A stretch of DNA of 22,457 nucleotides, taken from positions 1 to 22,457 of IMG/VR virus record IMGVR_UViG_3300033148_001059; one strand, 5' to 3'. Origin of the DNA: a virus. Position numbers and translations under genes: made by a program. Of the stretch, positions 1 to 22,457 are shown piece after piece. How positions within the stretch are numbered: position 1 is the first letter of the stretch; every line of letters starts with the position of its first letter. The notes beneath the pieces are model-generated. The model made no database searches and was not told the origin of the DNA. It was given only the letters and a program-made list of their open reading frames with translations.

Positions 1-2
1 TA

Positions 3-152
3 GATAGAGATACAGATGAGTTTGATAGGATTGCCGAATTTCTGAATTGTGATTCAGCATGCTTAATAAACTGTGTTGATAGAGAAAGAGTAAGGTTCCC
101 TCATGCCACTTCCAGGCCCAAAGGGCAAAGAGAAGCGCAAGGATTTTGTTAG
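3..152 (+). CDS. Possible 3' end of an upstream gene (partial)
   Basis: The frame starting at base 3 is open from the window edge to a TAG at 150-152; the other two forward frames are closed by several stops within the first 45 bases. The 49 codons give an acidic start (DRDTDEFDRIAEFLNCD) that looks protein-like, then become less convincing where they run about 50 bases into the next gene. It could be the tail of a gene that begins outside the window, or chance. No function can be given. Confidence 0.3.
   Translation, partial: DRDTDEFDRIAEFLNCDSACLINCVDRERVRFPHATSRPKGQREAQGFC
42..57 (+). repeat. Small perfect inverted repeat (6 bp stem, 4 nt loop)
   Basis: CTGAAT, TGTG, ATTCAG forms a perfect hairpin upstream of the first full gene. 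No T-run follows, so it is not a standard terminator. It may be a weak transcript structure or chance. Confidence 0.3.
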
Positions 153-312
153 TCGCTGCGTGTCGTTTATGACCAAGGAGGGAGAAGGCAAGGACGCCAA
201 GCAGCGCGTTGCCATATGCAATAGTCAATGGAAGAAGGCTAAGGCACGAGAACTAACAGATGAGGAAATTGAGGCTATAGCCAGAGTTCTGCGTGACTTA
301 AAATGTAGATAA
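103..312 (+). CDS. Small phage protein with K-D-F-V-S-R-C / K-Q-R-V-A-I-C motif
   Basis: A 69-residue basic protein with TAAGG at 91-95, 7 nt before the ATG. It contains the pattern KDFVSRC...KDAKQRVAICNSQWKK (about residues 13-46). I recall similar segments as short stand-alone proteins or as parts of head proteins in many tailed phages; the function is not known to me. Residues 51-66 form an acidic predicted helix (ELTDEEIEAIARVLRDL). Two cysteines, one in each half of the motif, could pair or bind metal. The gene is followed within 25 nt by a strong terminator, so it ends a transcription unit that begins upstream. Gene reality is fairly secure; the role is unknown. Confidence 0.75.
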   Translation: MPLPGPKGKEKRKDFVSRCVSFMTKEGEGKDAKQRVAICNSQWKKAKARELTDEEIEAIARVLRDLKCR

Positions 313-334
313 CCAAACAATCTTGTAGAATATG

Positions 335-370
335 AAGACGCGTGTCATTTTTGGCCCGCGTCTTTTTTTT
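335..370 (+). terminator. Rho-independent terminator
   Basis: AAGACGCG at 335-342 pairs perfectly with CGCGTCTT at 357-364 (8 bp), with a 14 nt loop, followed by a T-run to 370. It closes the unit ending with the 69-residue gene and insulates the packaging genes from upstream transcription. Confidence 0.9.
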
Positions 371-405
371 GTGGTGTAGTAGCAGGTAGAAACGTCTGAT
401 ACTTC

Positions 406-414
406 TGCTAGAAT
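406..414 (+). promoter_or_regulatory. Candidate extended -10 promoter before the terminase-small-like gene
   Basis: TGCTAGAAT fits an extended -10 element (TG-n-TATAAT with one mismatch) between the terminator and the next gene. No clear -35 box lies 16-18 nt upstream. A promoter is needed here because of the strong terminator just before. Confidence 0.45.
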
Positions 415-431
415 GAGTAGGTAAGGGGTAG

Positions 432-1142
432 GTTGAAGGAGATGACTGGCAGACTACCACTGATGAGCAAATTGCTAAAGAGGTTGGTAGAACGACTGAG
501 GCTGTTGCTCGTAGGCGCAAAGCCCTGGGTCTTTCGAAAAAAGCTGGTAGACCAGCAAAGAAAACACAGAAGGAGGCAGTAATTGCCAATCCTACTGAGT
601 ATTCGCTTGCTACGTTATCCAAGGATGATAGAATTGCGTTCTACAAGAGTCAATTCGATAAAAACCATAGATATCCATTTTTGGTTAAGATTCTAATTGG
701 TGACGAACTGCCATACTATCAGCACAAATACATTGAGTTCTTGGACAATGTCGATAGCATCACATTGCAGGAAGAAGAAATCCTGCACAATATGCTTATG
801 ACTGAAATTCAAATCTTGCGTATTCAAGAGCAAATAGCCGAAGCAGTTGTGGCTTATAGGGATAGTGATGATGAAGACAAGCGTCCACCGCCACAATATC
901 TATACAAGGACCTAAATGATGCCGAGAGTCGCTATGCCAGGTATCACAAGGACATGAACCTTACTAGAGAACAAAGACTCAAGACCAACAGAGAAGAACG
1001 AATAACAATCACTAGTATGGTGTCATCATTGCTGGAGGCAAGAAATAGGGCGAAGGCTGGTAACACAGCAGGCATGATGAGTTACTTTACTGACAAATGT
1101 CGAGATGATATGAACAAGATGGATTTTCTAATAGGGGGCTGA
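432..1142 (+). CDS. Putative terminase small subunit with N-terminal HTH; start disrupted
   Basis: The frame open from 432 encodes an HTH-like segment (TDEQIAKEVGRTTEAVARR) followed by a basic GRPAKK linker, then a helical, charged domain (from about 600) ending LIGG at 1142. The position two genes before the large terminase and the DNA-binding N-terminus fit a small terminase that recognises packaging DNA; this is inference. The only ordinary in-frame start is TTG 681, which would discard the HTH region. An ATG at 442 (or TTG 433 behind AGGGG 424-428) lies in the +1 frame and meets a stop about 47 codons on. One extra base near 447 would join that start to the HTH frame and give a product starting MTWQTTTDEQ. 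So this is either a sequencing or assembly deletion, a real mutation, or an unusual -1 shift. The 432 coordinate marks the open frame, not a start codon. Confidence 0.7.
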   Translation, partial: VEGDDWQTTTDEQIAKEVGRTTEAVARRRKALGLSKKAGRPAKKTQKEAVIANPTEYSLATLSKDDRIAFYKSQFDKNHRYPFLVKILIGDELPYYQHKYIEFLDNVDSITLQEEEILHNMLMTEIQILRIQEQIAEAVVAYRDSDDEDKRPPPQYLYKDLNDAESRYARYHKDMNLTREQRLKTNREERITITSMVSSLLEARNRAKAGNTAGMMSYFTDKCRDDMNKMDFLIGG

Positions 1143-1143
1143 T

Positions 1144-1323
1144 ATGTCGCGTATTAACGTTGGCAACAAGATGAACTCATACCTAAATGGTGAATGGGCG
1201 GGTCATGTCAGGAAGCGCCATGGAACTAAACGACTTACATCTAAGCGCCGCAGAGCGCAGGGGAAGCGTGAGATATGCCTCATTTTAGAAGGAAAAAGTC
1301 CAGACGGAAGGCGACGATTTTAG
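1144..1323 (+). CDS. Tiny basic protein, 59 residues
   Basis: ATG 1144 follows the previous stop by one base, with AGGGGG at 1133-1138 as ribosome binding site. The product (MSRINVGNKM... to ...SPDGRRRF) is very rich in Arg and Lys in its middle (residues 23-42), as expected for a nucleic-acid-binding peptide. Spacing and ribosome site support a real gene; no family is recognised. A second basic frame (1275-1460) overlaps its end and is treated as a shadow. Confidence 0.55.
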   Translation: MSRINVGNKMNSYLNGEWAGHVRKRHGTKRLTSKRRRAQGKREICLILEGKSPDGRRRF

Positions 1324-1368
1324 AATGCCAAGCAAGATGGCTTGGAAATCACAAGGAGAGGTTCAGCT

Positions 1369-1860
1369 ATGGCGACCGTAAAAAAAGGCTTCGTGCCGCC
1401 GAAGAAATTCAGGATTATCAGAGATACGAGGGAACAAAAGGGGAAGGGCTGGAACTTTAGGGCCTCAGCGAATTGCTATGGTCAGAAGGTTCAAAAGCTT
1501 GATGTTGGAGACTATACCGTAGAAGGTATGGAAGATATCCTGATGATTGAGCGCAAGACGCTAGGTGACCTGTGGGGCACACTTGGTCCACAGAAAAACT
1601 ATCAGCGATTTCTACGCGAGATGGATAGAGCCAAGGACCACAGGATTAAGTTCCTGATAGTTGAGGCGACTCTCGCAGATGTCGATAGGGGATATAGCTA
1701 TTCACAGGTCCCAGTAAACAACATTCATGCAAAGCTGATTTCGCTACAGGCAAAGCACAACCTACATGTGATTTTTGCCGGTAGACAAGACAGGGCTAGG
1801 GCCTATGTCCGAAGGCTTATGTCAAAAATGTTTAAGTATCATACAGACAAGTTACTATGA
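1369..1860 (+). CDS. ERCC4/XPF-type structure-specific nuclease
   Basis: The 163-residue product carries the ERCC4 nuclease signature: R-D-T-R-E-Q at 18-23, G-D-Y at 47-49, and E-R-K-T-L-G-D-L at 61-68, matching GDx(n)ERKxxxD, whose acidic residues and lysine bind metal and cleave DNA near branch points. There is no helicase region or helix-hairpin-helix tail, so it is the nuclease core alone. ATG 1369 is preferred over TTG 1342 because AAGGAG at 1353-1358 lies 10 nt ahead. The gene ends in an ATGA overlap with the large terminase, so the two are probably translated together. A plausible job is cutting branches or flaps in replicated DNA before or during packaging, as other phages do with endonuclease VII or RusA; that role is inferred. 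Confidence 0.85.
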   Translation: MATVKKGFVPPKKFRIIRDTREQKGKGWNFRASANCYGQKVQKLDVGDYTVEGMEDILMIERKTLGDLWGTLGPQKNYQRFLREMDRAKDHRIKFLIVEATLADVDRGYSYSQVPVNNIHAKLISLQAKHNLHVIFAGRQDRARAYVRRLMSKMFKYHTDKLL

Positions 1861-3644
1861 GCAGACACAGACTACCAATCACATATGAGATAGAAAAGGG
1901 CATCAAACTATCCAATCCGTTCTATGAGAATCTTGGAAAGTTTTCTGACCCATATGATGAGTTTGCATCAATTTGTCTCGACAACTTAACATGGGCAGCC
2001 TACCATCTACTGATGTGGCGTGGCCAGCCGCTACAGCTTGCACCATTCCAGAGCGTAATTTTAGAAACCCTGTGGAACAAGACCTTTCCCATCCTACTGA
2101 TGACCCGTGGTGGAGGCAAGACGTTTATGCTAGCAGTTTACGCGGTTTTACGGGCCATGCTCACGCCTGGGTCGAAGATTGTGATTGTAGCCGCTTCGTT
2201 CAGGCAGTCCAAGTTGGTATTTGAATACATTGAGCAGCTTTACAATTACTCTCCAATCTTTAGGGCGGCCTGTGCGAAGGGTCCAGAGAAGCCAAGTGAC
2301 TCTCGCAAGTTGACTGTTGGTTATTCAACAATTCAAGCACTGCCGCTGGGCAATGGTGAGAAAATTCGTGGTATTCGTGCAACGCACATTCTAACTGATG
2401 AGTTTGCGTCAATCCCATCAGAAATCTTCCAGGTGGTCGTTAGAGGTTTCGCCGCTGTTGCCGCAGACCCGATTGAAGCGGCAAAACAAACTCACGAAGA
2501 AGAGAAAGCAATTCGTGAGGGGAGAATGAAGCCTGCGGATAGAACCCAAACACAAGGTAACCAAATTGTCTATAGTGGCACCGCCAACTTTCAGTTCAAT
2601 CACTTCTATAAGGTCTACTTGGCTCATAAGTATCTGATAGATAACAAGATAGTCGGTGATGCAAAGGATATTGAAGATAGGCTTGAGATTGAGGAGGACG
2701 ATTCGTTTTTTGATGGCATGCTAGATTACAAAGACTATGCCATAGTCCAAATTCCGTATCAGGCATTACCTCGTTCATTCATGGATGAGAAGCAAATTGC
2801 GCAAGCCAGATTAACAATGCCAAAGGCGTTGTTTCAGATGGAATACGAATGTGTCTTCCCGACAGATTCAGATGGCTTTATCAGACGAAGTGCGATTAAC
2901 GACTCTACGCCAAAGCCTGGGTTCTGTATTGAAACAAAAGGGACGCCTGGATTTAACTACGTAATGGGAATTGACCCTGCCCGCAAGACAGACAACTTCG
3001 CAATTAGTGTCGTCAAGATGATGAAAGATGGCACCTACAGAAATGTATATTGTGAATCCATGAACGGCAAGAGGTGGCCAGAGGCTACTCGTAGAGTAAG
3101 GAAGGTTCTAAGTAGATTCAATATCGTTCACATTGCTATGGATGCCGGTGGTGGAGGAACGACAATTGAAGACCTTCTGTGCGACCCGAATATGCTACAA
3201 CCAGGAGAGGCCCCGATTTGGCGCTTCGATGATGACGAGGCTGTGAGATATGAAGGGCGCCATATCCTTGAAATGGTCAACTTTACGCCATCGTGGATTG
3301 GCGAGGCCAACTACGGACTCCTAGCAGATATTGAGCACCACAGGCTTGTATTCCCGAATCGTTCCAGAGATGGGTTGACTGAAGCCGAACATGAAGATGT
3401 CTGGAATGAGATTGATGAGCAAATCAATGAGATGTGCATGATTGTTGTTACGGCAACAAAGACCGGAGTTCAGCACTTCGATACTCCTGACCTTCCGGCA
3501 TCACAGCAAGGGACACTTAAAACACACCAAAGGAAGGACAGATATTCAGCTATGCTATTGTCTTCATATGGCGCTAGGTCTTTTACCGCAATGGGAGCTA
3601 GACAAATAGTTCCGAATATTGGAGGTTGGGCTTCTAGACTCTAG
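1857..3644 (+). CDS. terL: Terminase large subunit (ATPase-nuclease packaging motor)
   Basis: The 595-residue protein has the two-domain layout of phage large terminases. ATPase half: Walker A R-G-G-G-K-T at 84-89, Walker B H-I-L-T-D-E with D181 and catalytic E182, and coupling motif S-G-T-A at 240-243. Nuclease half (RNase H-like): D373 in G-I-D-P-A, D429 in A-M-D-A-G-G, and D561 in K-D-R-Y-S-A-M, the three expected metal-binding acids. It drives DNA into the prohead through the portal and cuts the concatemer. Length is typical. Translation is coupled to the nuclease gene upstream (ATGA). All key residues seem intact. Confidence 0.97.
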   Translation: MSRHRLPITYEIEKGIKLSNPFYENLGKFSDPYDEFASICLDNLTWAAYHLLMWRGQPLQLAPFQSVILETLWNKTFPILLMTRGGGKTFMLAVYAVLRAMLTPGSKIVIVAASFRQSKLVFEYIEQLYNYSPIFRAACAKGPEKPSDSRKLTVGYSTIQALPLGNGEKIRGIRATHILTDEFASIPSEIFQVVVRGFAAVAADPIEAAKQTHEEEKAIREGRMKPADRTQTQGNQIVYSGTANFQFNHFYKVYLAHKYLIDNKIVGDAKDIEDRLEIEEDDSFFDGMLDYKDYAIVQIPYQALPRSFMDEKQIAQARLTMPKALFQMEYECVFPTDSDGFIRRSAINDSTPKPGFCIETKGTPGFNYVMGIDPARKTDNFAISVVKMMKDGTYRNVYCESMNGKRWPEATRRVRKVLSRFNIVHIAMDAGGGGTTIEDLLCDPNMLQPGEAPIWRFDDDEAVRYEGRHILEMVNFTPSWIGEANYGLLADIEHHRLVFPNRSRDGLTEAEHEDVWNEIDEQINEMCMIVVTATKTGVQHFDTPDLPASQQGTLKTHQRKDRYSAMLLSSYGARSFTAMGARQIVPNIGGWASRL

Positions 3645-3654
3645 GGTGTATGAT
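3643..3654 (+). promoter_or_regulatory. GGTG-TATAAT-type element before the portal gene
   Basis: GGTG (3645-3648) followed by TATGAT (3649-3654) in the 49 nt gap after terL. It matches the element found ahead of four other structural units. No -35 box is obvious. The ribosome binding site GAGGTGA (3684-3690) follows. Confidence 0.45.
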
Positions 3655-3693
3655 AGGATTGGTAACATAGTTGCAATCTAGTTGAGGTGAGAC

Positions 3694-5967
3694 ATGTCAG
3701 AGAATAAAGTCGAACTTGGTATCAATACTATTGGTCTAAGCCCATCTATCCTGAAACAATTGGAGAGTTCCGTAGCTGGAGCAATTCAGGCGAATAGGGA
3801 TACTGTGGATACATTCAGAGCGCAGGCTGCTGATATCCAAAGGCGTGGTGTTAACCTTGGTGGTGATACTGGTCAGAACTTTGGAATGAATGCTGGGAAT
3901 ATTCATGGATGGCCATATTCGTGGCTAATGCCTCGTGACTTTAGTGGCATGTTTGGTGGCGCAAGCGAATTTGGCCAATTCGGCGGATTCATGGGCGGCA
4001 TGGTCGGCTTTGGTGGTTCTTCTAGAATCCACGGAAGTATGAGTGCGTTTAGTGGACGTGCAAGAATGGCTCACTACAAGATGGGCCTATGCGTTGAGGC
4101 ATATAAGGGATTTGGTGTTGCCAAGAACGTAATTGACTTGATGGCCAACTTTGCATCAGAAGGTCTTACGATTAAGCACAAGAGCAAGGCTGTAGAGAAA
4201 TTCTACAAGAGATGGGCTGAACACGTTGACCTACAGGGCAGGGTAAAGGACATTTTGAGATACTACTACAAGTATGCAAATGTATTTATCTATACAACAT
4301 ATGGCAAAATTGATACCGCCACATATAACAAGATGAGAAGGGCGAAGGGAACTAGGAGTCTTAAGGGCTTTGTTGAGATTCGTGGTGATGTTAATGACCC
4401 TGCGGCAGATGATAAGAAGAAAAAGATAGATGAGGAAAAGGGAAAGAATGCTGCTGATAAGGAAATTCCATGGCGCTACACAATGCTCAACCCGTTCCAG
4501 ATGGACCTTCGTGGTTCTAAATACTTTGGACAATCAAAGTGGGTATTCATCCTAGACCCACTGACAGCAAATGATATTGATTCTGGAGAATACAGTTCAA
4601 ATACTGAAATAGATTTCTTGGACAGAACCGAAATCAACTTGCCACCCGAATTCAAGAATCTATCACAGCAGGGAGAAAATCCGCTAATTGTGGATGTTGA
4701 CCCAGCGAAGCTGTGGACCCTTCACTATATGAAGGATGACCACGAGGACTGGGCTGACCCATTGTTGTGGCCAGTAATGTCTGACATCTCATACAAGAAC
4801 AAGCTACGCCAAATGGATATTAGTGTAGCGGATAGCGTCATCAATGCAGTAACCATCTTCAAGATTGGTGACTTCAAGAATGGCTTTATTCCACCAGAAG
4901 AGCACTTTAGGGCTTTTGCTGAGTTCTTGAGAACACCTACAGCCGCAATGAACATGGTATGGAATGATGCCATTAGTATTGAGAGCAACTATCCTCCAGT
5001 GGATAGGATTCTTAATGTCGCCAAGTATGAGGCAGTTGATAGAGATATTCTTCGTGGCTTGGGCGTCCCAGACAGTCTCCTAGGAGGAACTACTGGTTCT
5101 AGCTTTAGCACAGGATTCCTTGGCGTAAGAACTCTTCTTGAGCGCCTAGAGGAAGGCCGCCAGACGGTAACTCGCTGGATTAACAGCCAATTGAAGACGA
5201 TTGCCGATATTATGGGCCACAGAGACATTCCGAAGATTAAGTTCGGTAGGATGTCACTTCGTGATGAGAAGGCCGAGAAGCAACTCATTATGGGATTGTT
5301 GGATAGAAACATCATCTCGATTGAGGCAGTCCTTGAGGCATTTGGCGAGGACTTTGAGATTGAACTTGAGCGTATGCGCGACGAGAAGAAGATTAGAGAG
5401 AGAGATGAATTGCTAATTAAGCATGGACCATTTACCGAGCCTCTATCCGAGCAATACGAAGAAGAGCAAGAAGGAATGCCTACGCTAAACAAGCCATCGC
5501 CAAGAGGCAAGCCAGAAAACAAGAATAGGCCACCACGAGGTAGGCCAGGCGGAACGACCGACATCAAGCAAAAGCCGCGAGAAACAAAGCCGAAGGGCAT
5601 GGCGTGGCTAATGGATTGGGAAGTAACTAGGGCTAACGAACTAGATAGACTAGAGAAGGTTTATGATATCGTCACTAAGATAGTATTGAAAACAAAGGGC
5701 AAGAAGTATAAGAAGTCCCTCACAAAGAAGGACAGGACTGGTATTGAGAACATTTCGTTTGGAGCAGCATCATATCTCCTAGAAGAGGTTACTCCTGCGT
5801 CTGTTATCAATACATTAAGGGATGGCGACACTTGTGGATATCATCCAGATATCCTTGAGCGTTTCGAACAAATCATTCCAGGTGGCACAATGAATAAGAC
5901 TGCTACTCTGGTTGAAAGAAAACATGCTATGGCGACGGCAATTGCGAGTTATAGGATGGGTGTATAA
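3694..5967 (+). CDS. Portal protein
   Basis: A 757-residue protein directly after terL, where the portal is expected. It would form the dodecameric ring at one capsid vertex through which DNA passes. Residues 55-120 are rich in Gly, Phe and Met. The region near 450-480 (GLGVPDSLLGG, then SSFSTGFLG and a charged helix) resembles the portal crown/stem segment of large portals. A Lys-rich insert lies around 230-255. After about 590 comes a Pro/Arg/Lys-rich linker (with RPPRGRPGG), then an extra domain of about 120 residues that I do not recognise. It is longer than usual (typically 450-600), mainly because of the two ends. GAGGTGA precedes ATG 3694. Portal identity is firm from context and moderately firm from sequence. 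Confidence 0.88.
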   Translation: MSENKVELGINTIGLSPSILKQLESSVAGAIQANRDTVDTFRAQAADIQRRGVNLGGDTGQNFGMNAGNIHGWPYSWLMPRDFSGMFGGASEFGQFGGFMGGMVGFGGSSRIHGSMSAFSGRARMAHYKMGLCVEAYKGFGVAKNVIDLMANFASEGLTIKHKSKAVEKFYKRWAEHVDLQGRVKDILRYYYKYANVFIYTTYGKIDTATYNKMRRAKGTRSLKGFVEIRGDVNDPAADDKKKKIDEEKGKNAADKEIPWRYTMLNPFQMDLRGSKYFGQSKWVFILDPLTANDIDSGEYSSNTEIDFLDRTEINLPPEFKNLSQQGENPLIVDVDPAKLWTLHYMKDDHEDWADPLLWPVMSDISYKNKLRQMDISVADSVINAVTIFKIGDFKNGFIPPEEHFRAFAEFLRTPTAAMNMVWNDAISIESNYPPVDRILNVAKYEAVDRDILRGLGVPDSLLGGTTGSSFSTGFLGVRTLLERLEEGRQTVTRWINSQLKTIADIMGHRDIPKIKFGRMSLRDEKAEKQLIMGLLDRNIISIEAVLEAFGEDFEIELERMRDEKKIRERDELLIKHGPFTEPLSEQYEEEQEGMPTLNKPSPRGKPENKNRPPRGRPGGTTDIKQKPRETKPKGMAWLMDWEVTRANELDRLEKVYDIVTKIVLKTKGKKYKKSLTKKDRTGIENISFGAASYLLEEVTPASVINTLRDGDTCGYHPDILERFEQIIPGGTMNKTATLVERKHAMATAIASYRMGV

Positions 5968-5978
5968 AGGAGAGGATT

Positions 5979-6425
5979 ATGCCTAAAGGCAAAGATATCT
6001 ATGAGGACCTGAGTAAGAAGTATTTCGAGAGACGTAGGGCTCGTGAGGCACTATCAAAGGCTGCTGATGTCGATGAGGACGGAAAGCCTATTCCTCCTGC
6101 AAAGATTGACAACTTTAGGGTGAATAAGCCAAAGATGGCAAGAAGCCTTAACTTTCAGCCAGGTGAGCCCAAAAGACGAAAGATTAGTCCAACAGAGGGC
6201 AAACCTGTAGTCAATGCATCTACCGATATAAAGAAGCTTATTCATAAGCCAAAGGCCGTAGCGAAAACTCCACTTGAAAATCCTACTGCTGGTGTAATAA
6301 AAGACACAGAAGGAGCCCCAAAGAAGAGGGGTAGGCCAAAGGGTAGTAAGAACAAGACAACCAAGAAGGCGACCAGGAGGAAGAACGATGGGACTAAGCA
6401 AGCAAGAAAAAGAACTTCTAAGTAA
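5979..6425 (+). CDS. Lysine-rich AT-hook protein
   Basis: A 148-residue, strongly basic, low-complexity protein, probably disordered. Near residues 114-125 it has K-K-R-G-R-P-K-G-S-K-N-K, a good AT-hook core (R-G-R-P) known to bind the minor groove of AT-rich DNA, followed by a Lys/Arg tail. AAGGAGAGG precedes the ATG by a few bases. It lies between portal and protease and its 3' end overlaps the next gene by 38 nt. It may be an internal head or DNA-binding protein, or a regulator; nothing in the sequence decides between these. No enzyme motif is seen. Confidence 0.75.
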   Translation: MPKGKDIYEDLSKKYFERRRAREALSKAADVDEDGKPIPPAKIDNFRVNKPKMARSLNFQPGEPKRRKISPTEGKPVVNASTDIKKLIHKPKAVAKTPLENPTAGVIKDTEGAPKKRGRPKGSKNKTTKKATRRKNDGTKQARKRTSK

Positions 6426-6783
6426 GGCATATACTGAGATTAGGAGAAAGTATACTAGAGCCCTACTTCCAGAAGAAGAGGCCCTTCTAGAGAAGCAGTG
6501 GAATGCTGAAGAGGATTTTTCCAGTCCTGGCTATCATATCCATGATGAAACAAATCCTACTGGTAAGCATAGACATCACATCGAGGACACCATTGATGGA
6601 GAACATAGACACACGTTTATAAATCCAGAAGGTGAACACGTCCATGGGAATGTTGAAGGAATGGCGTTGGCTGATGGTGGCCATTACCACGACTGGAATG
6701 GTCTAGGCTGGCATCATCACGATGAGTGTGACGATAATTCCGGAACCGACCTAATTCCAGAAAAGCCGGACAGTGTCCTATAG
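6388..6783 (+). CDS. Histidine-repeat protein with six G-x-H-x-H motifs
   Basis: The 131-residue product starts with a charged helical part (1-44), then carries six G-x-H-x-H units beginning at residues 48, 59, 71, 82, 97 and 107 (GYHIH, GKHRH, GEHRH, GEHVH, GGHYH, GWHHH), spaced 10-15 residues apart. H-x-H repeats of this type bind metal in phage fibre tips: T4 gp37 threads iron through H-x-H pairs in a trimeric needle. A similar metal-bound trimeric stalk is the best guess; a free metal-binding protein is the alternative. AGGAGG at 6375-6380, 7 nt before ATG 6388, is strong. The gene overlaps its upstream neighbour by 38 nt and the next gene by 11 nt. Confidence 0.8.
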   Translation: MGLSKQEKELLSKAYTEIRRKYTRALLPEEEALLEKQWNAEEDFSSPGYHIHDETNPTGKHRHHIEDTIDGEHRHTFINPEGEHVHGNVEGMALADGGHYHDWNGLGWHHHDECDDNSGTDLIPEKPDSVL

Positions 6784-7510: not shown

Positions 7511-7513
7511 GAC

Positions 7514-7526
7514 TTGGTGTATAAAT
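7514..7526 (+). promoter_or_regulatory. GGTG-TATAAT-type element before the protease-scaffold gene
   Basis: TTGGTG followed by TATAAA (7520-7525) in the 37 nt gap between the sulfotransferase and protease genes. It is one of five closely similar intergenic elements. It would give a very short leader, since the ribosome site GGAG lies at about 7538-7541. Confidence 0.5.
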
Positions 7527-7547
7527 CAGTAAGGTCCGGAGAATACA

Positions 7548-9146: not shown

Positions 9147-9157
9147 GGAGGATTAAC

Positions 9158-9635: not shown

Positions 9636-10637
9636 ATGAGTGCATTGATTAAGCTAACTCCAGAACAGATTGCCCTACTTAGAGCTACTGCTTCTGATAA
9701 TGTCCAAGTGGCTATGGCCGCGCAAAAGGCACTTGCCGCAGCGCTAAGTGAGCCACTCCGTCAGGGTATTTTTGATGAGGACAACCTAGGTGGAATCTTC
9801 CGTCGTGAAGTTCTAGCACCAGGTGCTCAGGCAAACTATCCACTTGACTTTGTTCGTCCAGGCACGGAAGACCTTGACTTCACCGCTATTACTTTGCCTA
9901 AGCAGGGCAAGGTTCCAGAGCGTCACGTCGAAGGCGACGAGCTATGGGTTCCAACTTTCCAGATTGCTAACGCAATTGACTGGAGCCTACGCTACGCCCG
10001 CGATGCACGCTTTGACGTGGTTGGTCGCGCAATCCGTGTTTACCAGATGGGATTCGTCCGCAAGATTAACGAGGATGGTTGGCACACGCTCCTAGCAGCA
10101 GCCGACGCTCGCGGTCTTGTTGTCGCTGATACTGGTGCCGCTGCTGGTCAGTTTACTAAGGAGCTTGTCTCCCGTATGCAAACTGCCATGACGCGTAACG
10201 CTGGTGGAAACGGCCAGGCTGGTATGCTTACTGACCTCTATATGTCAATGGAGGCCATGGAAGACCTAAGAGCATGGGACATTTCCGAGATTGACGAAGT
10301 AACTCGTCGTGAGATTCTAACTAGTGCTGGTAGAAACTTGGCAAACCTATATGGAACCACGCTTCACTTCATGACCGAGTATGGTGTCGGTCAGGAGTAT
10401 CAGACCTATCTAGATACCACACTTGGACGTTCCGTGACGGCAGTTAGTGCTGACCAGGAGTTCGTTGTAGGTCTTGACCTAAGCACCAACGACAGCTTCG
10501 TCCAGCCAATTCGCCAGGAGCTACAGACCTTTGAGGATGACAGTCTACATCGTCAGCAAAGGGCTGGAATTTACGGATGGATGGAGCACGGTTTCGCCGT
10601 TCTCGACAACCGTAGAGTAATCCTAGGCACCTTCTAA
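9636..10637 (+). CDS. Major capsid protein (HK97-fold)
   Basis: The 333-residue product follows the decoration gene and is preceded by a strong AAGGAGGAG site. A helical N-terminal arm (1-50) is followed by an E-loop-like region (LAPGAQANYPLDFVRPGTED), a long spine helix (around 115-160, with VGRAIRVYQMGFVRKINEDG) and a C-terminal part containing QRAGIYGWMEHGFAVLDNR, a phrase typical of capsid A-domains. It would assemble into the icosahedral shell with portal and scaffold. Arg codons are mostly CGT/CGC here while most neighbours use AGA/AGG, a sign of high expression. A strong terminator follows. Confidence 0.9.
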   Translation: MSALIKLTPEQIALLRATASDNVQVAMAAQKALAAALSEPLRQGIFDEDNLGGIFRREVLAPGAQANYPLDFVRPGTEDLDFTAITLPKQGKVPERHVEGDELWVPTFQIANAIDWSLRYARDARFDVVGRAIRVYQMGFVRKINEDGWHTLLAAADARGLVVADTGAAAGQFTKELVSRMQTAMTRNAGGNGQAGMLTDLYMSMEAMEDLRAWDISEIDEVTRREILTSAGRNLANLYGTTLHFMTEYGVGQEYQTYLDTTLGRSVTAVSADQEFVVGLDLSTNDSFVQPIRQELQTFEDDSLHRQQRAGIYGWMEHGFAVLDNRRVILGTF

Positions 10638-13979: not shown

Positions 13980-13992
13980 GGCAGGGGGCTAG

Positions 13993-15750: not shown

Positions 15751-15770
15751 TATCAGGCGTGTTGCCTATT

Positions 15771-15801
15771 TTGACCACTGCCCCGTTGGTGAGTGTATAA
15801 T
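15771..15801 (+). promoter_or_regulatory. Promoter before the neck genes, with -35 and -10
   Basis: TTGACC (15771-15776) and TATAAT (15796-15801) are 19 nt apart, slightly long for a housekeeping promoter. The -10 is preceded by GAGTG, close to the GGTG of the other elements. It is the only member with a recognisable -35. A small AGGC/GCCT hairpin followed by ATTTT (15755-15772) just upstream may end the fibre transcript weakly. Confidence 0.6.
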
Positions 15802-15829
15802 TTCATAGAACTTACACTTAGGAGGAATC

Positions 15830-16213
15830 ATGGCAGCGCGCTTCACAGATGCCACACTAATTTCCATACTACAAAAAGCAGGGAGACGAATTAACCGTCG
15901 TCTCCATTTGACTGGAACGAGCGACCAGCTTTCAGTCAGCGCAAGCGGCGTAGTAACCCCTGACAATGACGACCTTGAGGACATGGTGCTCCTTCAGGCC
16001 GAGTGCATGATAGCCTCTAGAGAATTCCAGCAGGAATTAACAGACGGCACTGCTGGGCTCCTTGCGGTCGATGGAGAACAGAAGCTCGACACTCGCGGCC
16101 AGACAATTGGCCGTGGCACATTCTTTGATAGCACATACAGTCCATGTGCCGAACTGACTGAGGCAGTGAAACTTTATTGTATGGCGAATACCTCTGGAAG
16201 ACTTATCTACTAG
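15830..16213 (+). CDS. Head-tail connector (adaptor)-like protein
   Basis: A 127-residue, mostly helical protein, first of a four-gene neck block, preceded by TAGGAGG. The pattern of an N-terminal helix (ATLISILQKAGRRINRRL), a helix LEDMVLLQAECMIASREFQ, and a C-terminal TEAVKLYCMAN resembles gp6/gp15-type adaptors that bind below the portal. Such adaptors are encoded right after the capsid genes; here the fibre cassette has come between. Identification is by shape and place. Confidence 0.55.
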   Translation: MAARFTDATLISILQKAGRRINRRLHLTGTSDQLSVSASGVVTPDNDDLEDMVLLQAECMIASREFQQELTDGTAGLLAVDGEQKLDTRGQTIGRGTFFDSTYSPCAELTEAVKLYCMANTSGRLIY

Positions 16214-16221
16214 GAGTTGTC

Positions 16222-16740
16222 ATGGGTGAAGTAGCAAATAGCGAATATTTCCATCCGGACTCAAGCAGCACGCTAATTCCAAGCCTGATTGCTAAGTTCA
16301 AAATTTCAATGGACACAATGTTGCAGGGAGGCCGCGATGTGATTATACATCTTCCTCCAGAAAAGTCGCAATGTCCTGGTTCGTGCAGATTCAACTCTGC
16401 CTATAAGAAATTCATAAGTGCCACTGGTGGCATTTGTAGCACATGTAAGGGCGAAGGATACCTACTCGAACATCGCTACACTACATATAAGGCAAACATC
16501 AGACATATAGATATGCCACTTGAGAGTGCCGATAGTGGTGGACAAGATACTCCAGCAGGAAGAATATCACAAAGAGTAGTTAGAACAAAGATGGCTCTTA
16601 TCGCATACACTCATCTACAAAAGTGCCTTGGGGCCACGATAGATGGAGAGGAATACAAACTACATGGGGACCTAGAAAAGACAGGATTTGCCGGAACAGT
16701 TCTATACGTGGTTGCCACATGGAAGAAAATGGATAAGTAA
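16222..16740 (+). CDS. Neck/head-completion protein with a four-cysteine zinc site
   Basis: ATG 16222 follows TAGGAG (16211-16216) by 5 nt; the frame extends upstream to 16177 but that part overlaps the preceding gene. The 172-residue protein holds C-P-G-S-C (about 51-55) and C-S-T-C-K-G-E-G-Y (about 72-80), a CxxxC plus CxxC pattern likely to bind one zinc. The rest is mixed. Stop TAA and the next ATG share a base (TAATG), so the two are coupled. Its location suggests head completion or a stopper; the zinc site is seen, the role inferred. Confidence 0.65.
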   Translation: MGEVANSEYFHPDSSSTLIPSLIAKFKISMDTMLQGGRDVIIHLPPEKSQCPGSCRFNSAYKKFISATGGICSTCKGEGYLLEHRYTTYKANIRHIDMPLESADSGGQDTPAGRISQRVVRTKMALIAYTHLQKCLGATIDGEEYKLHGDLEKTGFAGTVLYVVATWKKMDK

Positions 16741-17384
16741 TGGCCAAAGAACTAATTGAATTCAAAATCGTGAGAGGTAGCTTAGAGAAGGCCAAGAACC
16801 TTTTCGGCCAGTTCATACGTAGAGAGTTCAAGGACAACTTTGCAAACCTAAAGCCACTAGTCGAGGATGCTGTTGAGCGGACCATTACTGAAAACAAGGA
16901 GAGATTCATTCCTTCTGACGATGAGGCTGCTCAACTGGGTATTGGAACTGGAGGGGCGCTTAGGACAGACAAAACTCAGGGTGCATGGAAGTTGTTGTCT
17001 CCAAAACATCCTTCTAAGGTTATGACGGTGAAGGTTATCGGTGGCATAGGAGGAAATGGAACTGTTGAAATAAATCTAAATACAGATATATGGTTTGATG
17101 CACCCGAATGCAATGTTGAAGTTTCAGATACGGCTTTTCCTAACATTCCATGGATGGAGTGGTTTATCGACGGTAAAACCATTGTTGGTGCTAGGTTTAG
17201 TAGGCATCTACCTATTCCGAAAACATCGAGAACTGGTAGAGGCATAATGATTTCTGGCGGTCTATGGATGTTTCTACCGAGGCTGTTTATACTGCTAGAT
17301 ACGATGGATGATGTCAGAGTTGATGCTGCCAGAGCAATTAAGTCTCGTGGTGCTAAAATTCTAACACCTAGGAGAAGAATGTAA
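16740..17384 (+). CDS. Putative neck or tail-completion protein
   Basis: A 214-residue protein between two TAATG overlaps. An N-terminal helical part (SLEKAKNLFGQFIRREFKDN, then VEDAVERTITENKERF) is followed by a beta-rich middle (VMTVKVIGG, GTVEINLNTDIWFD) and a basic C-terminus ending PRRRM. The long N-terminal helix with a beta core is reminiscent of HK97 gp10-like tail-completion proteins, but the sequence match is not strong. Position between zinc-site neck protein and tube supports a neck or tail-terminator job. Confidence 0.5.
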   Translation: MAKELIEFKIVRGSLEKAKNLFGQFIRREFKDNFANLKPLVEDAVERTITENKERFIPSDDEAAQLGIGTGGALRTDKTQGAWKLLSPKHPSKVMTVKVIGGIGGNGTVEINLNTDIWFDAPECNVEVSDTAFPNIPWMEWFIDGKTIVGARFSRHLPIPKTSRTGRGIMISGGLWMFLPRLFILLDTMDDVRVDAARAIKSRGAKILTPRRRM

Positions 17385-18304
17385 TGGCTACAATGGGAAA
17401 GAAAGCACTATTGAAGTCAAACCTAGAATTGTGGCTTAACGACCTATTTCTCAGGCATGGGCTATTTACCACGATTGCGTCCGGTGCGACCGATGTGTAT
17501 GGTAATGATATAAGTCGCCTGCGACCATCAAATGACCCAACGTTTCCAGTAGATGGAACTGTGTTCCAGAGCCCATACAAGAATTGGGTCTATGAGAGCG
17601 GAATTATTCCGATTGAAGTTGGGGTAATTTCTGCCCCAATTGTAGTATCTGGTGTTATAGTAGATGGGACCTTTCATCAGACAACAGAAACCACCGGAAC
17701 ATATGCACACATAATTGATTATCCAAATGGAAGGGTAATTTTCGACAGTCCACTCGCTGGAAGCCCGGTAATTCAAGCAGACTATTCATTCAAGGAAGTT
17801 ACAGTTGATTTTGCAAATGTGTTCAATAACGAAAATATGCCTTTGCAAATTGAAACATCCATGAAAGATAATCCAGCACAAACGGGAGTAGAGAGTTATC
17901 CAACATCTGATTCTAGAACACTTCCCGCTGTATTCATTGATATTCTGTCTAGACAGTCAAGTGGATACGAACTTGGCTGGAGGTCTCTCGTGGCTGATTA
18001 TTTCGGTGTATTCCATGTATGGGCACGCGATGATTTCCAAAGGGATATGATTGAAGACATTCTTGCGGATGAACAAAGACAAGTGCTTCTTGGAATCAAT
18101 TTCAATACGGCTCAATATCCGCTCTTAAGTAGAGGGGAGCGCAACCCGAGCTTTACAAGCTATTCAACCTTGGCTGATGTCAATGGTCCATATTTTTGGA
18201 GGCGTATTTATCTAGACCAGACTGGACCAACGAAAGATGTGCCACTGTTCGAAGTGGAACGTAGCAGAATCAACTTTAACGCTAGAGTATACCCGAACTT
18301 TTAG
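17384..18304 (+). CDS. Structural protein of the neck/tail-terminator region
   Basis: A 306-residue protein with a start shared with the previous stop (TAATG). An N-terminal helix (KALLKSNLELWLNDLFLR) precedes a beta-rich section with repeated VVSGVIVDGTF-like strands and a G-x-x-x-Y-P-N-G-R-V-I-F-D phrase, then a mixed C-terminal half ending in NFNARVYPNF. I do not recognise the family. Gene order (just before the tail tube) points to a tail terminator or neck component. The gene closes its unit; a promoter-like element follows 10 nt on. Confidence 0.55.
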   Translation: MATMGKKALLKSNLELWLNDLFLRHGLFTTIASGATDVYGNDISRLRPSNDPTFPVDGTVFQSPYKNWVYESGIIPIEVGVISAPIVVSGVIVDGTFHQTTETTGTYAHIIDYPNGRVIFDSPLAGSPVIQADYSFKEVTVDFANVFNNENMPLQIETSMKDNPAQTGVESYPTSDSRTLPAVFIDILSRQSSGYELGWRSLVADYFGVFHVWARDDFQRDMIEDILADEQRQVLLGINFNTAQYPLLSRGERNPSFTSYSTLADVNGPYFWRRIYLDQTGPTKDVPLFEVERSRINFNARVYPNF

Positions 18305-18308
18305 GTGT

Positions 18309-18320
18309 TTGGTGTATAAT
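18309..18320 (+). promoter_or_regulatory. GGTG-TATAAT-type promoter before the tail tube gene
   Basis: TTGGTG followed by a perfect TATAAT (18315-18320), the best -10 of the set, in the 69 nt gap ahead of the tube gene. No -35 box is seen at the usual distance. A leader of about 45 nt leads to GGAGGGAG and ATG 18374. Confidence 0.6.
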
Positions 18321-18373
18321 CAAGTAGCCAGTGGTTTTAGACATCAGCAGTCCTAATTCGGAGGGAGTAGAAA

Positions 18374-19531
18374 ATGCCTAACAACAGAGTATTCTATGCT
18401 ATTCACAGCGTAGCAATTAAAGAGAATGGGACTACACCTACTAATGAAGTAGTTCCAATTATCGCAGGAGTTGACGTTGCTCCTTCCGGTCGCTGGGATA
18501 TCCCACGCGGTGTTCAGTCAGTCGGAATGACAACAACATTCAACTTCGAGCAAGTTTTCCAGCTTGGTCAAATCCAGCTATATGAGTATGTAGAGCTTGA
18601 GCCAGAGATTGAGTTTACCATTGAGAAGGTTCTTGATGGAACCAAGCCTCTCTGGTTTATGACTACTGGCCCTCGCGGAACACAAACACTTATCGGAAGA
18701 ACTGCCAGCTATAGAGCAGATATTGCCGTTCCTATCTATGCAGACACTCAGACGAATGCTGTAGGAACTCCACTATCCATGGCATACGGTTCCGGTATGT
18801 ATCTAAGTTCCATCAACTACTCTTTCCCAGTAGATGGAAACTTTACCGAGTCTGCGACCCTAGTAGGTAACGACAAGATTTGGTCCAACTTCGAGGGTGG
18901 AGACCCACTACCAATTTCGCTTGCTCGTGGAAGCGGACTTGATGACCAAGGAAGCACCCAGACGCAGCTAGGTTACCCAAGTGGCGTTTATGCTCCTTTC
19001 CCTGGTGGAATTATTCCATTCACGACTACTGGTGGCGAGAGCGCTACAGTTGTCGGTTCTGGTGTTGAGAGGCGCGAAGGTTTCGACCTTATCCAGTCTC
19101 GTCTGCCAACCGAAATTCCTGGTGTTAGTTCTTCAGGAACACTAGCGAACATTACTGAGCATCTCCAGGGCATCACGATTTCCTGTGACCTTGGACGTGA
19201 GGACATCTTCGAGCTTGGCTCCAAGCGTCCGTTCTTCAAGTATGTTTCCTATCCAGTAGAGGTTACTTGTTCCATCGAAGCAATTACTTCTCAGGGTGAT
19301 TTGGTCGATGCCATCTCCTACGAAGCAGAGAACTGCGTTGTAGCCGAGAACACCAGCGACCAGGAAATTATCATCAAGCTATGTGAAGGCTTGAGGATTA
19401 ACCTTGGAACGAAGAGTCGCTTGCAGTCTATCGACCTAACTGGTGGAGAAGCCGGTGGCGATAACATGAGTGCGACTTACAACTACAGCACCTTCAACGA
19501 TTTGACAATCACGCACGAGGTGTTCCAGTAA
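18374..19531 (+). CDS. Major tail tube protein with two tandem tube domains
   Basis: A 385-residue protein, long for a tube protein (often 150-250). It looks internally duplicated: residues 54-88 (VFQLGQIQLYEYVELEPEIE within) resemble 268-306 (IFELGSKRPFFKYVSYPVEV within), and LSSINYSFPVDGNFTESATL (144-163) resembles LQSIDLTGGEAGGDNMSATY (350-369). In both, the order is entry strand, F-x-L-G, Tyr/Glu strand, then an S-I-x-Y-type strand near the end. This fits a trimeric tube with pseudo-sixfold rings, as in T5 pb6. CGT/CGC Arg codons are frequent, as in the capsid gene. A strong GGAGGGAG site precedes the start; a hairpin follows the stop. Confidence 0.82.
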   Translation: MPNNRVFYAIHSVAIKENGTTPTNEVVPIIAGVDVAPSGRWDIPRGVQSVGMTTTFNFEQVFQLGQIQLYEYVELEPEIEFTIEKVLDGTKPLWFMTTGPRGTQTLIGRTASYRADIAVPIYADTQTNAVGTPLSMAYGSGMYLSSINYSFPVDGNFTESATLVGNDKIWSNFEGGDPLPISLARGSGLDDQGSTQTQLGYPSGVYAPFPGGIIPFTTTGGESATVVGSGVERREGFDLIQSRLPTEIPGVSSSGTLANITEHLQGITISCDLGREDIFELGSKRPFFKYVSYPVEVTCSIEAITSQGDLVDAISYEAENCVVAENTSDQEIIIKLCEGLRINLGTKSRLQSIDLTGGEAGGDNMSATYNYSTFNDLTITHEVFQ

Positions 19532-19552
19532 GATTTGGCTAAGGAAAGGTCC

Positions 19553-19573
19553 GGGGTGAGCTTTGCTCGCCCC
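19553..19573 (+). terminator. GC-rich hairpin after the tube gene
   Basis: GGGGTGAGC (19553-19561) and GCTCGCCCC (19565-19573) pair over 9 bp (one G-U) with a TTT loop. Only TT follows, so full termination is unlikely; it may act as an attenuator or protect the tube message from 3' decay. Confidence 0.6.
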
Positions 19574-19575
19574 TT

Positions 19576-19591
19576 AACCCTATAGGGGGTT
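19576..19591 (+). promoter_or_regulatory. Inverted repeat covering the ribosome site of the next gene
   Basis: AACCC (19576-19580) can pair with GGGTT (19587-19591); the core CCCTATAGGG is also a perfect palindrome. The G-run (19585-19589) is the ribosome binding site for GTG 19595, so folding would hide it and lower translation of the chaperone-like gene. Confidence 0.45.
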
Positions 19592-19594
19592 GGT

Positions 19595-20788
19595 GTGTCT
19601 CCAGAGGAGATTGAGGATAGGATTGCTAAAATCACATGGGGAGCAAGGTATCATTACGTTCAAAATGGACGTGGCAAGGAACAGATTGTCATACTCAAAT
19701 CCCTTAATAGCAGACAAAAAGGCTTCGTGTCCTTCATTTATGATAGGGCATACAAGGAAGCTGTATCTACTGGTATTTTAACTCGCTTCGAGCTTAAGCG
19801 CATTTTGAATGAGCGCATTCTTTGGGGTCCACATGAGGACGATGCTATCAAGCGAGCCAAAGAACGAATTAAAGAGTTAAAGAAAGAAATACACGACGTA
19901 AAGAAAAACTCCAGGATATTCAAACGAACAGTCAAGGTTATAGAGGCTCAAAACAGAGCATTACAACAACTAGAGCAAAAGAAGCGGTCTATGTTTGCCG
20001 TTTCAGCAGAAGTATATGCAGAAGAAGCTAGAAGTCTTGCACTGGCCTACTGCTTATCGTATGATGAGAACGATAAGAGGTTATGGAAAACCTGGGATGA
20101 CTTCTTGGATGAAACAGATGTAACTTTCATTGGTGAACTAATTGTCGCACTAGCAAAAGACGACGTTGTATCTTTGGGTGAAACGAGAGAAGTTGCTAGA
20201 AGTTCTTCTTGGCGATTTAGATGGAATGGTGCGAAAAGTAACGTGGATAATTTATTTGGAAAACCAATAATTGAATTTGACAATAACCAGCAAAATCTAC
20301 TATACTGGAGTCAGGTATATGATTCAGTATATGAAGCGCCAGAGCCTCCTCCAGATGAAGTTATTGAAAACGATGCTAAACTAGACGCCTGGTTTGAGGC
20401 ACAAGACAAGCAACGTAAGAAGAATGTATTCAAGTCTTCTGACACTAAAGAAGACGTTGGTCGTGGCATTAAGGTGTCACATGACGTTGGAAGACATGGC
20501 GAAGTTTTTATTGTTACCAATCCAGACATTAACCCGAACGCACCCGACGCAGCCGATGTTGATGAGCTAAACTCATCTCTTTCTCGTAAGTTCAAATCTA
20601 AAGAACTTGATAGAATCCAGAATAACAAGGTATTGAACGAAAAGGATTTGCGCAATCGTCAAAATAGAAATGCGCGAAGAATAATCGGTTCTACCGACGC
20701 AGTGCTGGATAAGAAGAGCCGTAGTGGACGAGGTGGGCGACAGGGTGGACGGAGCGCATTCAAGCAGTTCCCAGGAGGGACAATCTGA
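19595..20788 (+). CDS. Tail assembly chaperone-like protein 1
   Basis: Start GTG 19595 with AGGGGG at 19584-19589. The 397-residue product lies between tube and tape-measure genes, where tail assembly chaperones are found. Residues 50-78 (AYKEAVSTGILTRFELKRIL within) match residues 34-65 of the later 248-residue protein (G-I-L-T-x-x-E/L-x-x-x-I-L-x-E-R-x-x-W), and the following coiled coil (83-130) also corresponds. The C-terminal third is charged and low-complexity, ending in a Gly/Arg-rich tail (SGRGGRQGGR). Chaperones of this kind coat the tape-measure protein during tail assembly. No frameshift site of the usual kind is seen; the stop overlaps the next start (TGATG). Confidence 0.6.
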   Translation: MSPEEIEDRIAKITWGARYHYVQNGRGKEQIVILKSLNSRQKGFVSFIYDRAYKEAVSTGILTRFELKRILNERILWGPHEDDAIKRAKERIKELKKEIHDVKKNSRIFKRTVKVIEAQNRALQQLEQKKRSMFAVSAEVYAEEARSLALAYCLSYDENDKRLWKTWDDFLDETDVTFIGELIVALAKDDVVSLGETREVARSSSWRFRWNGAKSNVDNLFGKPIIEFDNNQQNLLYWSQVYDSVYEAPEPPPDEVIENDAKLDAWFEAQDKQRKKNVFKSSDTKEDVGRGIKVSHDVGRHGEVFIVTNPDINPNAPDAADVDELNSSLSRKFKSKELDRIQNNKVLNEKDLRNRQNRNARRIIGSTDAVLDKKSRSGRGGRQGGRSAFKQFPGGTI

Positions 20789-21087
20789 TGAGGCTTGGCA
20801 AACACGTTGACAAAAAAACAGACAATTGGTCTGATAAGTCAAAAAAGAAGTTGAAGGCTAGCGTCCGTCACAAGATGAAGCGCATTTATGTGGGGATTCT
20901 TGACGCCCTTGATAAAGAGAGGGCTGACGGTCTACTTGAAGATGAGACCTTTAAGAAGCTAAGGTCTAAAATATTGAATATTGGCAATGACCAAATTCGG
21001 AACATGGAATCTGAGTTGGATAATCAGTATAACATTGAGTTCTTGAACTATCACATTGATTTCAAGATTATCCCACCACCAGAATAA
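20788..21087 (+). CDS. Small helical protein in the chaperone block
   Basis: A 99-residue, basic and helical protein whose ATG overlaps the previous stop (TGATG), with AGGAGGGA upstream, so it is translated by coupling. Features: a Lys-rich start (KKTDNWSDKSKKKLK), a helix MKRIYVGILDALDKERADGLL and an end KIIPPPE. It lies in the -1 frame relative to the preceding gene, as a frameshift extension would, but no slippery heptamer is present in the short shared open stretch (20725-20788). Probably a partner in tape-measure chaperoning; function not proven. Confidence 0.6.
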   Translation: MRLGKHVDKKTDNWSDKSKKKLKASVRHKMKRIYVGILDALDKERADGLLEDETFKKLRSKILNIGNDQIRNMESELDNQYNIEFLNYHIDFKIIPPPE

Positions 21088-21098
21088 CGGAGGATAGG

Positions 21099-21845
21099 AT
21101 GAGGATTAGGGTTTTCACGACAAAAGGCGAGGACGGAAATGACATGGTTTTGGAGTTTCGTCCACCAAGTCAAGGCGCACTTAACAAGGCAGAGTTGGTT
21201 TTCAAAAAGACATTCTCGAAATGCTTTAGGGACGGTATCCTTACTACCTCAGAAGTAGAGAAGATTCTACGTGAGCGTGGCATTTGGGATGACGATAAGG
21301 AACGCGAAGCCGCAATGTTCCAGCTTCAGATTGCTAAACTAGAAGCGAAGCTCAAGGATGGTGAACTTGAGGATGAGGAAGCCAAGGCTTTGTGTGAAGA
21401 GCTTGTAGTGCTTAGAACAGAACTCATGAATCACAATGAACCAGTGGTTTCGATTGCCGAAAACACATGTGAGTCTATTAGTGGTGAGGAGCGCAATCAG
21501 TTCCTAGTTACTCAATGTATCTACCATAAGGCTGCCGGTTCTCGTGTATATAAGAGTGTAGAGGAATTCAAAAGTCGAGGCGAAGAACAGGCCGCTAGGG
21601 ACTCCTACATGGAGACGGTAATTGCATCCCTAGAGGTTACTATGGGTGAGGAGCTTCCAAGCGACCTTAGCCAAATCTACTCTGAAAACAGGTGGTTGAC
21701 AGACTATTCAGAGAGAATGGCCAAAGAAGAGCAAGAGAAACTAGAAGCGGAAGAAGCAAAAGAAACCAAGGCTGACGAACAAGAACAAGAAGTAAAGCCA
21801 AAAAAGGCTAAGAAAAAGAAAAAGAAGGCTGCACCCAAAGACTAA
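21099..21845 (+). CDS. Tail assembly chaperone-like protein 2
   Basis: A 248-residue paralogue of the 397-residue protein two genes upstream: residues 34-65 (VFKKTFSKCFRDGILTTSEV within) align with its residues 50-78, each followed by a charged coiled coil and then a helical domain (here about 125-180). It begins with a strand-like MRIRVFTTKG and ends in a Glu/Lys tail with KKAKKKKKKAAPKD. GGAGG precedes ATG 21099. Near its end C-CAA-AAA-AGG contains A-AAA-AAG in the phase needed for -1 slippage, but the shifted frame stops after one codon, so it would only trim the tail. Confidence 0.6.
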   Translation: MRIRVFTTKGEDGNDMVLEFRPPSQGALNKAELVFKKTFSKCFRDGILTTSEVEKILRERGIWDDDKEREAAMFQLQIAKLEAKLKDGELEDEEAKALCEELVVLRTELMNHNEPVVSIAENTCESISGEERNQFLVTQCIYHKAAGSRVYKSVEEFKSRGEEQAARDSYMETVIASLEVTMGEELPSDLSQIYSENRWLTDYSERMAKEEQEKLEAEEAKETKADEQEQEVKPKKAKKKKKKAAPKD

Positions 21846-21867
21846 ATCCTCTCAAACGGACTAAACT

Positions 21868-21910
21868 AAAGGCCATGTTGCTCAGATAATTAACTGCGCA
21901 CATGGTCTTT
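21868..21910 (+). terminator. Hairpin between chaperone block and tape-measure gene
   Basis: AAAGGCCATGT (21868-21878) pairs with ACATGGTCTTT (21900-21910), 11 bp with one G-U, 21 nt loop. The 3' arm ends in TTT then CTTC, so it could be a weak terminator or an mRNA stabiliser. It lies about 20 nt before the tape-measure start, leaving its ribosome site free. Confidence 0.55.
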
Positions 21911-21930
21911 CTTCGTAGGAGAATTAACAA

Positions 21931-22457
21931 ATGGCTAAGATACTATTTGATGTTGGTATCTCCCCCGCATCGGTCAAAAGAGCCCAAATGGATATCAACA
22001 GGATATTCATGGGGCAAAGCTCTAGGCTGATTGATAGGGTAACCAAAAATCAAGTCAATTTGAACAAGGCTATCAAGCAAGGAACCTCCAATGCGTTCCA
22101 GTTTGGTAGACAGGTTCAATTTGCTGCCAAGAGACTAATGGCATGGACTGCTCCAGCAGCCGCTATTTTCGCTACTATCGGTGCGCTAAAATCTGCCGTT
22201 CAGCAAATCGTCAAACTAGACACCCAAGCTCGTAGGCTTTCATTCTTTGCCAGTGGCGGTCGTATTTTCGTAGACACAAGTAACGCAACCAAGGGTCTTA
22301 CGCGTGACATTTCAGGTCTTTCAAAGGCAATGTCGGAACTGGGAACCACAGCAAAAGCCTTCCAAAAGCTTGGGTCTGAGGCCAGGAGAACTTCGGCAGG
22401 CATTAACCTAATTGTCAATACTGCTAGGAAACTTGGTCTTTCGCTAGAAGATGTTAC
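21931..22457 (+). CDS. Tape-measure protein, 5' part (runs off the window)
   Basis: ATG 21931 follows TAGGAG by 9 nt and the frame stays open to the window end (175 full codons, no stop). The product starts MAKILFDVGISPASVKRAQM, is helical and Ala/Lys/Gln-rich, and holds a hydrophobic stretch WTAPAAAIFATIGAL (72-86) typical of tape-measure N-termini, with heptad-like repeats around it. It would set tail length as a scaffold inside the tube and later help DNA pass into the cell. Position after tube and chaperone genes supports the call; the true length lies outside the window. Confidence 0.85.
   Translation, partial: MAKILFDVGISPASVKRAQMDINRIFMGQSSRLIDRVTKNQVNLNKAIKQGTSNAFQFGRQVQFAAKRLMAWTAPAAAIFATIGALKSAVQQIVKLDTQARRLSFFASGGRIFVDTSNATKGLTRDISGLSKAMSELGTTAKAFQKLGSEARRTSAGINLIVNTARKLGLSLEDV

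Follow-up and report, generated by a model that had tools for sequence, protein, structure and literature searches.

Complete Absence of GATC from Tailed Phages Is Linked to a Small Phage-Encoded Nuclease Gene

Introduction

The tetranucleotide GATC is missing from a clade of tailed phages, and from most unrelated phages found to carry a homolog of one small nuclease-like gene of that clade. A phage-encoded, methylase-free GATC endonuclease probably explains this loss, and does so better than restriction by the hosts. Missing palindromes in phages are commonly taken as traces left by host restriction, from which the host may be deduced; should the loss be caused by a phage gene, such inference fails for many phages. 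Our starting point, hereafter the window, is an entire virus record of 22,457 bases (IMGVR_UViG_3300033148_001059), a structural-module fragment of a tailed phage.

Results and Discussion

Word Counts in the Window

Exact counting over positions 1–22457 found no GATC and no GTAC on either strand, where a maximal-order Markov model predicts 76 and 59, respectively, and base composition 84 of each. The complete absence of both words claimed by a sequence-only reading is thus confirmed, as is its remark that CTAG is frequent (111 observed, 108 expected). When all 256 tetranucleotides were counted, these two were the only ones at zero (CGGG, the next lowest, had an observed/expected ratio of 0.43). 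We then shuffled synonymous codons in the coding part of the window 300 times, preserving proteins and codon usage. The shuffled sequences had 69 GATC and 65 GTAC, with minima of 53 and 47 over the 300 shuffles; because they never came near zero, the loss was selected on the DNA and not on the protein, which rules out protein-level constraint as its cause. The same absence was found in G001 (35 kb, 99.9% identical to the window; GATC 0/103 and GTAC 0/86, observed/expected here and below) and in G002 (177 kb, DNA 79% identical; 0/605 and 0/452).

The window encodes, all on the plus strand, an ERCC4-type nuclease (1369–1860; PHROG 3490, E-value 4e-18, with a Pfam ERCC4 match on the G002 homolog) beside the terminase large subunit (1857–3644; PHROG 2, 5e-30), followed by the portal protein (3694–5967; PHROG 2739, 2e-10) and the major capsid protein (9636–10637; PHROG 2522, 8e-9). 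At positions 440–447 it has about 55 bases fewer than the near-identical G001 (L015), the two sides of the join overlapping by 7 bases, and the start codon of a small-terminase-like gene (L015:2105–2857) sits in the missing piece. The phage collection held no close isolated relative, and a host search with the capsid profile gave no match across genome contigs; one lead, a methanogen host with MjaIII/MjaV-like enzymes, was dropped for want of support.

Clade-Constant and Lineage-Variable Losses

Relatives were collected by terminase and capsid searches, and the 26 found with the major capsid protein fall into two groups, one lacking GATC (the window, G001–G004, G006, G007, and G023), the other, comprising the remainder, lacking GCGC. 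In the first clade, GATC counts were 0/605, 0/442, 0/299, 0/167, 0/101, and 0/89, with normal GCGC; in the sister clade, GCGC was at 0 (up to 0/493) and GATC at normal frequency. All records with enough sequence have one clade-constant tetranucleotide, GATC or GCGC, at or near zero, and a loss so absolute and so constant within a clade suggests a phage-encoded cause. Two further features of these relatives were recorded. The terminase of G004 (L019:9748–12687) is 979 residues long and contains an insert that, on our own reading, looks like an intein. A single block of G002 (L006–L007) holds over 40 tRNA genes together with a tmRNA-like gene; elsewhere in its genome are genes for a PARP with a WGR domain, IMPDH, PhoH, and a class II ribonucleotide reductase.

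The loss of GTAC has another distribution. Only the subclade to which the window belongs lacks the word entirely, and counts among relatives were 0/452, 7/117, 30/76, 92/239, and 276/453, the last in G007. In G002, 20 palindromic hexamers (each 10–42 expected) and six gapped palindromes (35–51 expected) are also at zero, and SAGCTS is at 4/154; the window is too short to reveal most losses of this type by itself. The hexamer sets missing from other relatives overlap but differ, with GAGCTC, CTCGAG, GACGTC, AGGCCT, CTGCAG, and CAGCTG recurring. For instance, AACGTT occurs 8 times in the window and not at all in aligned G002, where all eight sites are changed, and TCGCGA is at 0 in G001 and 20 in G002. 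Such gradation, with differences between closely related phages, is the pattern expected when phages avoid the enzymes of their hosts; the losses of GTAC and the hexamers are therefore probably separate from that of GATC and due to Type II restriction by the hosts; the unusually purged genome of G002 would then imply hosts with many Type II systems. An HNH endonuclease gene present in G002 and absent from G007 (L007:10064–10609) is a possible candidate for the GTAC loss. The earlier proposal of restriction-type selection therefore holds insofar as selection acted on the DNA and is restriction-like, and host restriction is the best guess for GTAC and the hexamers but not for GATC.

A Nuclease-Like Gene of the GATC-Lacking Clade

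Comparison of gene families between the two clades to find clade-specific genes singled out one nuclease-like gene in the GATC-lacking clade, encoding a protein of 155–165 residues with a PD-(D/E)XK-like signature, GDI...EVK(F/Y)D..M..KTGNLCFE. It was present in every record of this clade longer than 95 kb (G002, at L009:11085–11564, G006, and G007) as well as in contig G027 (16263–16736), and no homolog was found in any of the 39 GCGC-clade and control records searched. The window is not long enough to contain the gene, which was placed through the overlapping G027 (IMGVR_UViG_3300033148_002054), about 28 kb past the window's right edge. The last 114 bases of the window (22344–22457, plus strand) are identical to the end of G027, which aligns to G001 over 905 columns with 4 mismatches and 30 gap columns and has the word profile of the window (AACGTT present, TCGCGA absent, GATC and GTAC at zero). 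Two other nucleases were rejected as the GATC enzyme: the ERCC4-type protein, because its gene occurs in both clades alike (15 of 18 records), and a Vsr/DUF559-like nuclease (L007:17985), which is patchy and also found in both.

The AlphaFold model of the protein (pLDDT 90.5) has a PD-(D/E)XK fold, and its best structural neighbors in the PDB are I-Ssp6803I (Z 10.4), NhoI (10.0), Eco15I (9.9), Hjc (9.4), and HinP1I (8.7). The catalytic-type residues E60 and K62 are invariant in 18 sequences; together with the core alpha-beta fold of the model, this catalytic D/E...ExK motif predicts that the protein belongs to the PD-(D/E)XK superfamily, whose nucleases cleave DNA metal-dependently. In sequence searches, a Pfam scan of three members at E-values up to 1 gave no match, including to phage_endo_I and the GATC restriction endonuclease families (a sequence-level result, compatible with kinship to the latter at the level of the fold), the PDB yielded no significant relative, and PHROG gave one weak match to a family of unknown function. 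Since the fold neighbors include Holliday resolvases, the fold is no proof of site-specificity, and specificity for GATC is deduced from the total absence of the site in carriers. A cognate methyltransferase, as a Type II restriction–modification system would have, was not found in the families searched: adenine methylases of PF01555 and PF02086, a search that could miss other types, were absent from the records searched, and no DNA methyltransferase family was among the matches listed for 87 G002 proteins. A phage methylase of these families was accordingly discarded as the cause of word loss.

In the sister clade, an unrelated protein of 161–174 residues whose signature, ADF.V.G.G.VEVKF.KP, is similar was present in 17/17 records longer than 95 kb and in 0/6 GATC-clade records. 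Its model (pLDDT 85.3) shows the same broad fold at Z 7–8, near background. This protein is a candidate GCGC nuclease on the evidence of one clade, and it stays a candidate because no homologs were found outside that clade.

GATC Absence Follows the Gene across Unrelated Phages

Homologs of the GATC-clade nuclease were sought irrespective of base composition. In a first set, 27 of 30 carrier loci had no GATC, as against 1 of 74 controls (Fisher p 1.7e-20); the controls were loci selected through the unrelated gene Thy1, together with three noncarrier pelagiphages. A control locus, L298, had GATC at 0/43, with no homolog detected in the 103-kb record searched. Of 22 viral contigs with a homolog, 19 had no GATC and one had 1/39, while the word occurred in two divergent contigs. 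A second scan gave 80 further carriers, not independent because many are interrelated; 78 of the 79 loci counted were at zero, with 2 GATC observed against 2,706 expected over these 79, both within about 510 bases of one contig's end. At least 568 relatives of the nuclease were found in one marine-heavy scan.

Carriers range over GC contents of 0.29–0.65 and at least four host groups. They include the Xanthomonas jumbo phage XacN1, whose homolog is about 30% identical (GATC 0/149 in 40 kb), and the isolated marine phages HTVC019P, HTVC011P, HTVC103P, HTVC201P, Gjalp, HMO-2011, and CRP-143, all with zero GATC. In Himinglaeva, the absence of GATC (0/59) was known first, and the homolog was then found at the predicted place, in the replication region. 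The sole GATC of another carrier locus, at L171:9926, lies 81 bases upstream of the nuclease gene. Two carriers of a divergent subfamily, which like the control L298 do not fit the association, contain GATC (L175, 16/51; L178, 75/85) and have GGCC at 0/24 and 0/30, respectively; in both homologs a conserved Gly is replaced by Ala (PSG to PSA). These homologs may have switched specificity or become inactive, or the phages may simply avoid GGCC in the ordinary way.

A general Holliday-junction or host-degrading nuclease, the absence of GATC being an accident of shared lineage or the effect of something else, for instance mismatch repair, appears highly improbable. Hjc and RecU are indeed among the fold neighbors, and phiX174 lacks GATC according to a study tied to mismatch repair (PMC5014478). 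However, when the first-set carriers were sorted into 10 groups with fewer than three other proteins in common, so that they share almost nothing but the nuclease gene, GATC absence recurred in 8 of them. Moreover, several carriers already possess a separately annotated endonuclease I gene, and a bias of the MutH/Dam type should also affect noncarriers infecting the same hosts, one of which, HTVC010P, has 131 of 139 expected GATC.

Phages That Share a Host

Pelagiphages allow carriers and noncarriers to be compared on the same host. On Pelagibacter HTCC1062, the carriers HTVC019P, HTVC011P, and Gjalp have GATC at 0/45, 0/35, and 0/20, whereas HTVC010P, whose whole genome was searched and has no homolog, is the GATC-rich noncarrier just mentioned; on HTCC7211, HTVC103P is at 0/46 versus 73/105 in HTVC106P. 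HTVC008M fits less well, with low GATC (17/90; 35 of its 147 kb were read). Among the arguments against host restriction as the cause of GATC loss, this split between same-host phages weighs most.

Classical avoidance, in which GATC- and GTAC-specific Type II systems of the hosts drove the loss of both sites, has precedent, as GATC is underrepresented in all 46 surveyed phages whose hosts encode GATC restriction endonucleases (PMC6286503), and the graded GTAC loss and the hexamer sets differing between 79%-identical phages fit a host-driven process. For GATC, however, the loss would have to follow the restriction repertoire of the host, and same-host phages instead divide by gene carriage, over a wide range of base compositions and host groups. 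In addition, GANTC is the sole methylation motif of a Pelagibacter metagenome-assembled genome, and a Pelagibacter isolate has an orphan GATC methylase with no cognate restriction endonuclease (PMC12570018). We therefore consider classical avoidance an unlikely cause of the absence of both words. The suggestion that missing GATC may help identify the host fails on the same grounds: the loss is invariant in the clade, accompanies a phage gene wherever it was followed among unrelated phages with few exceptions, and separates phages of one host, so that it is more informative on the nuclease of the phage itself than on the host.

Proposed Mechanism and Implications

In the phage-encoded endonuclease model, a small PD-(D/E)XK enzyme of about 155–165 residues would cut GATC wherever it is unmethylated in the DNA of the host or of rivals. 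It would have no partner methylase, and the phage would owe its immunity to selection by the enzyme it encodes, which has purged every GATC. Any newly arisen GATC would be lethal to the phage and continually removed, which would make the loss absolute rather than partial. We infer from the gene neighborhood and by analogy that host DNA may be the main target: the enzyme would probably fragment it during infection, with exonucleases completing nucleotide recycling. Indeed, the pelagiphage gene sits between the genes for DNA polymerase and exonuclease, in a replication/nucleotide-recycling block that also has ribonucleotide reductase. Competing phages may be cut too. That the enzyme is instead a weapon against co-infecting phages and plasmids and not a degrader of host DNA, a variant compatible with the main explanation, seems rather doubtful to us. 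The GATC richness of same-host noncarriers (131 sites in HTVC010P) and the observation that host DNA is not degraded during infection by Marseillevirus, which has a GATC restriction–modification system (PMC7253447), speak for it, but the gene neighborhood in pelagiphages speaks against it; both roles can coexist.

More broadly, we lean slightly toward a widespread family of methylase-free phage restriction endonucleases that would tell self from nonself by word absence and switch specificity between lineages (GATC in the window's clade, GCGC by way of the unrelated small nuclease of the sister clade, and perhaps GGCC in the divergent subfamily). Other tetranucleotides at zero include AATT in L297 (0/39), CTAG in L291 (0/29) and L340 (0/22), and the pairs CCGG (0/23) and CGCG (0/19) in L331 and CTAG and GCGC (0/20 each) in L033; these loci and L298 are candidates for further enzymes of the same kind. 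On this broader reading, a missing tetranucleotide in a phage would often be the fingerprint of its own weapon and not of host defense. If a phage gene does cause the loss, the specificity of uncharacterized phage nucleases could be read from missing words, the product now labeled "hypothetical protein" in pelagiphages, HMO-2011, and XacN1 could be annotated, and having neither sites nor methylase would be a new principle of self-protection. It may also bear on the loss of AGCT in pandoraviruses, noted as unexplained (PMC7253447).

Comparison with Known Systems

HinP1I, EcoRV, PvuII, and NhoI likewise have the PD-(D/E)XK fold, and a short palindromic target is what we propose for the present protein. 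It differs from orthodox Type II enzymes in being encoded by phages, in that no cognate methyltransferase was found, and in matching no Pfam restriction endonuclease family. T4 endonucleases II and IV and T7 endonuclease I are phage enzymes too, and they break host DNA so that its nucleotides can be reused; T4 spares its own DNA by base modification, and T7 endonuclease I is not a cutter of 4-bp palindromes. The likeness to these enzymes lies in the host-DNA-breaking role proposed here, and endonuclease I is a distinct gene that coexists with the GATC-linked nuclease in several phages.

Among viral restriction enzymes, R.CviAI of chlorovirus PBCV-1 targets GATC and R.CviAII targets CATG (PMC7248222). 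R.CviAI resembles the present case as a virus-encoded restriction endonuclease with a 4-bp GATC target, as presumed here. To similar ends, chloroviruses combine their GATC endonuclease and a methylase (PMC7253447), and they protect themselves by M.CviAI/M.CviAII methylation, whereas the window's clade has no sites and no methylase of the families searched. Open-access full texts, to which our search was confined, described no phage-encoded, methylase-free restriction endonuclease with site absence. Finally, restriction-site avoidance (Rusinov et al. 2018, PMC6286503), in which palindromes are lost through selection by endonucleases, agrees with what is seen for GTAC and the hexamers, but the loss of GATC differs from it in being complete and in tracking a phage gene rather than the host.
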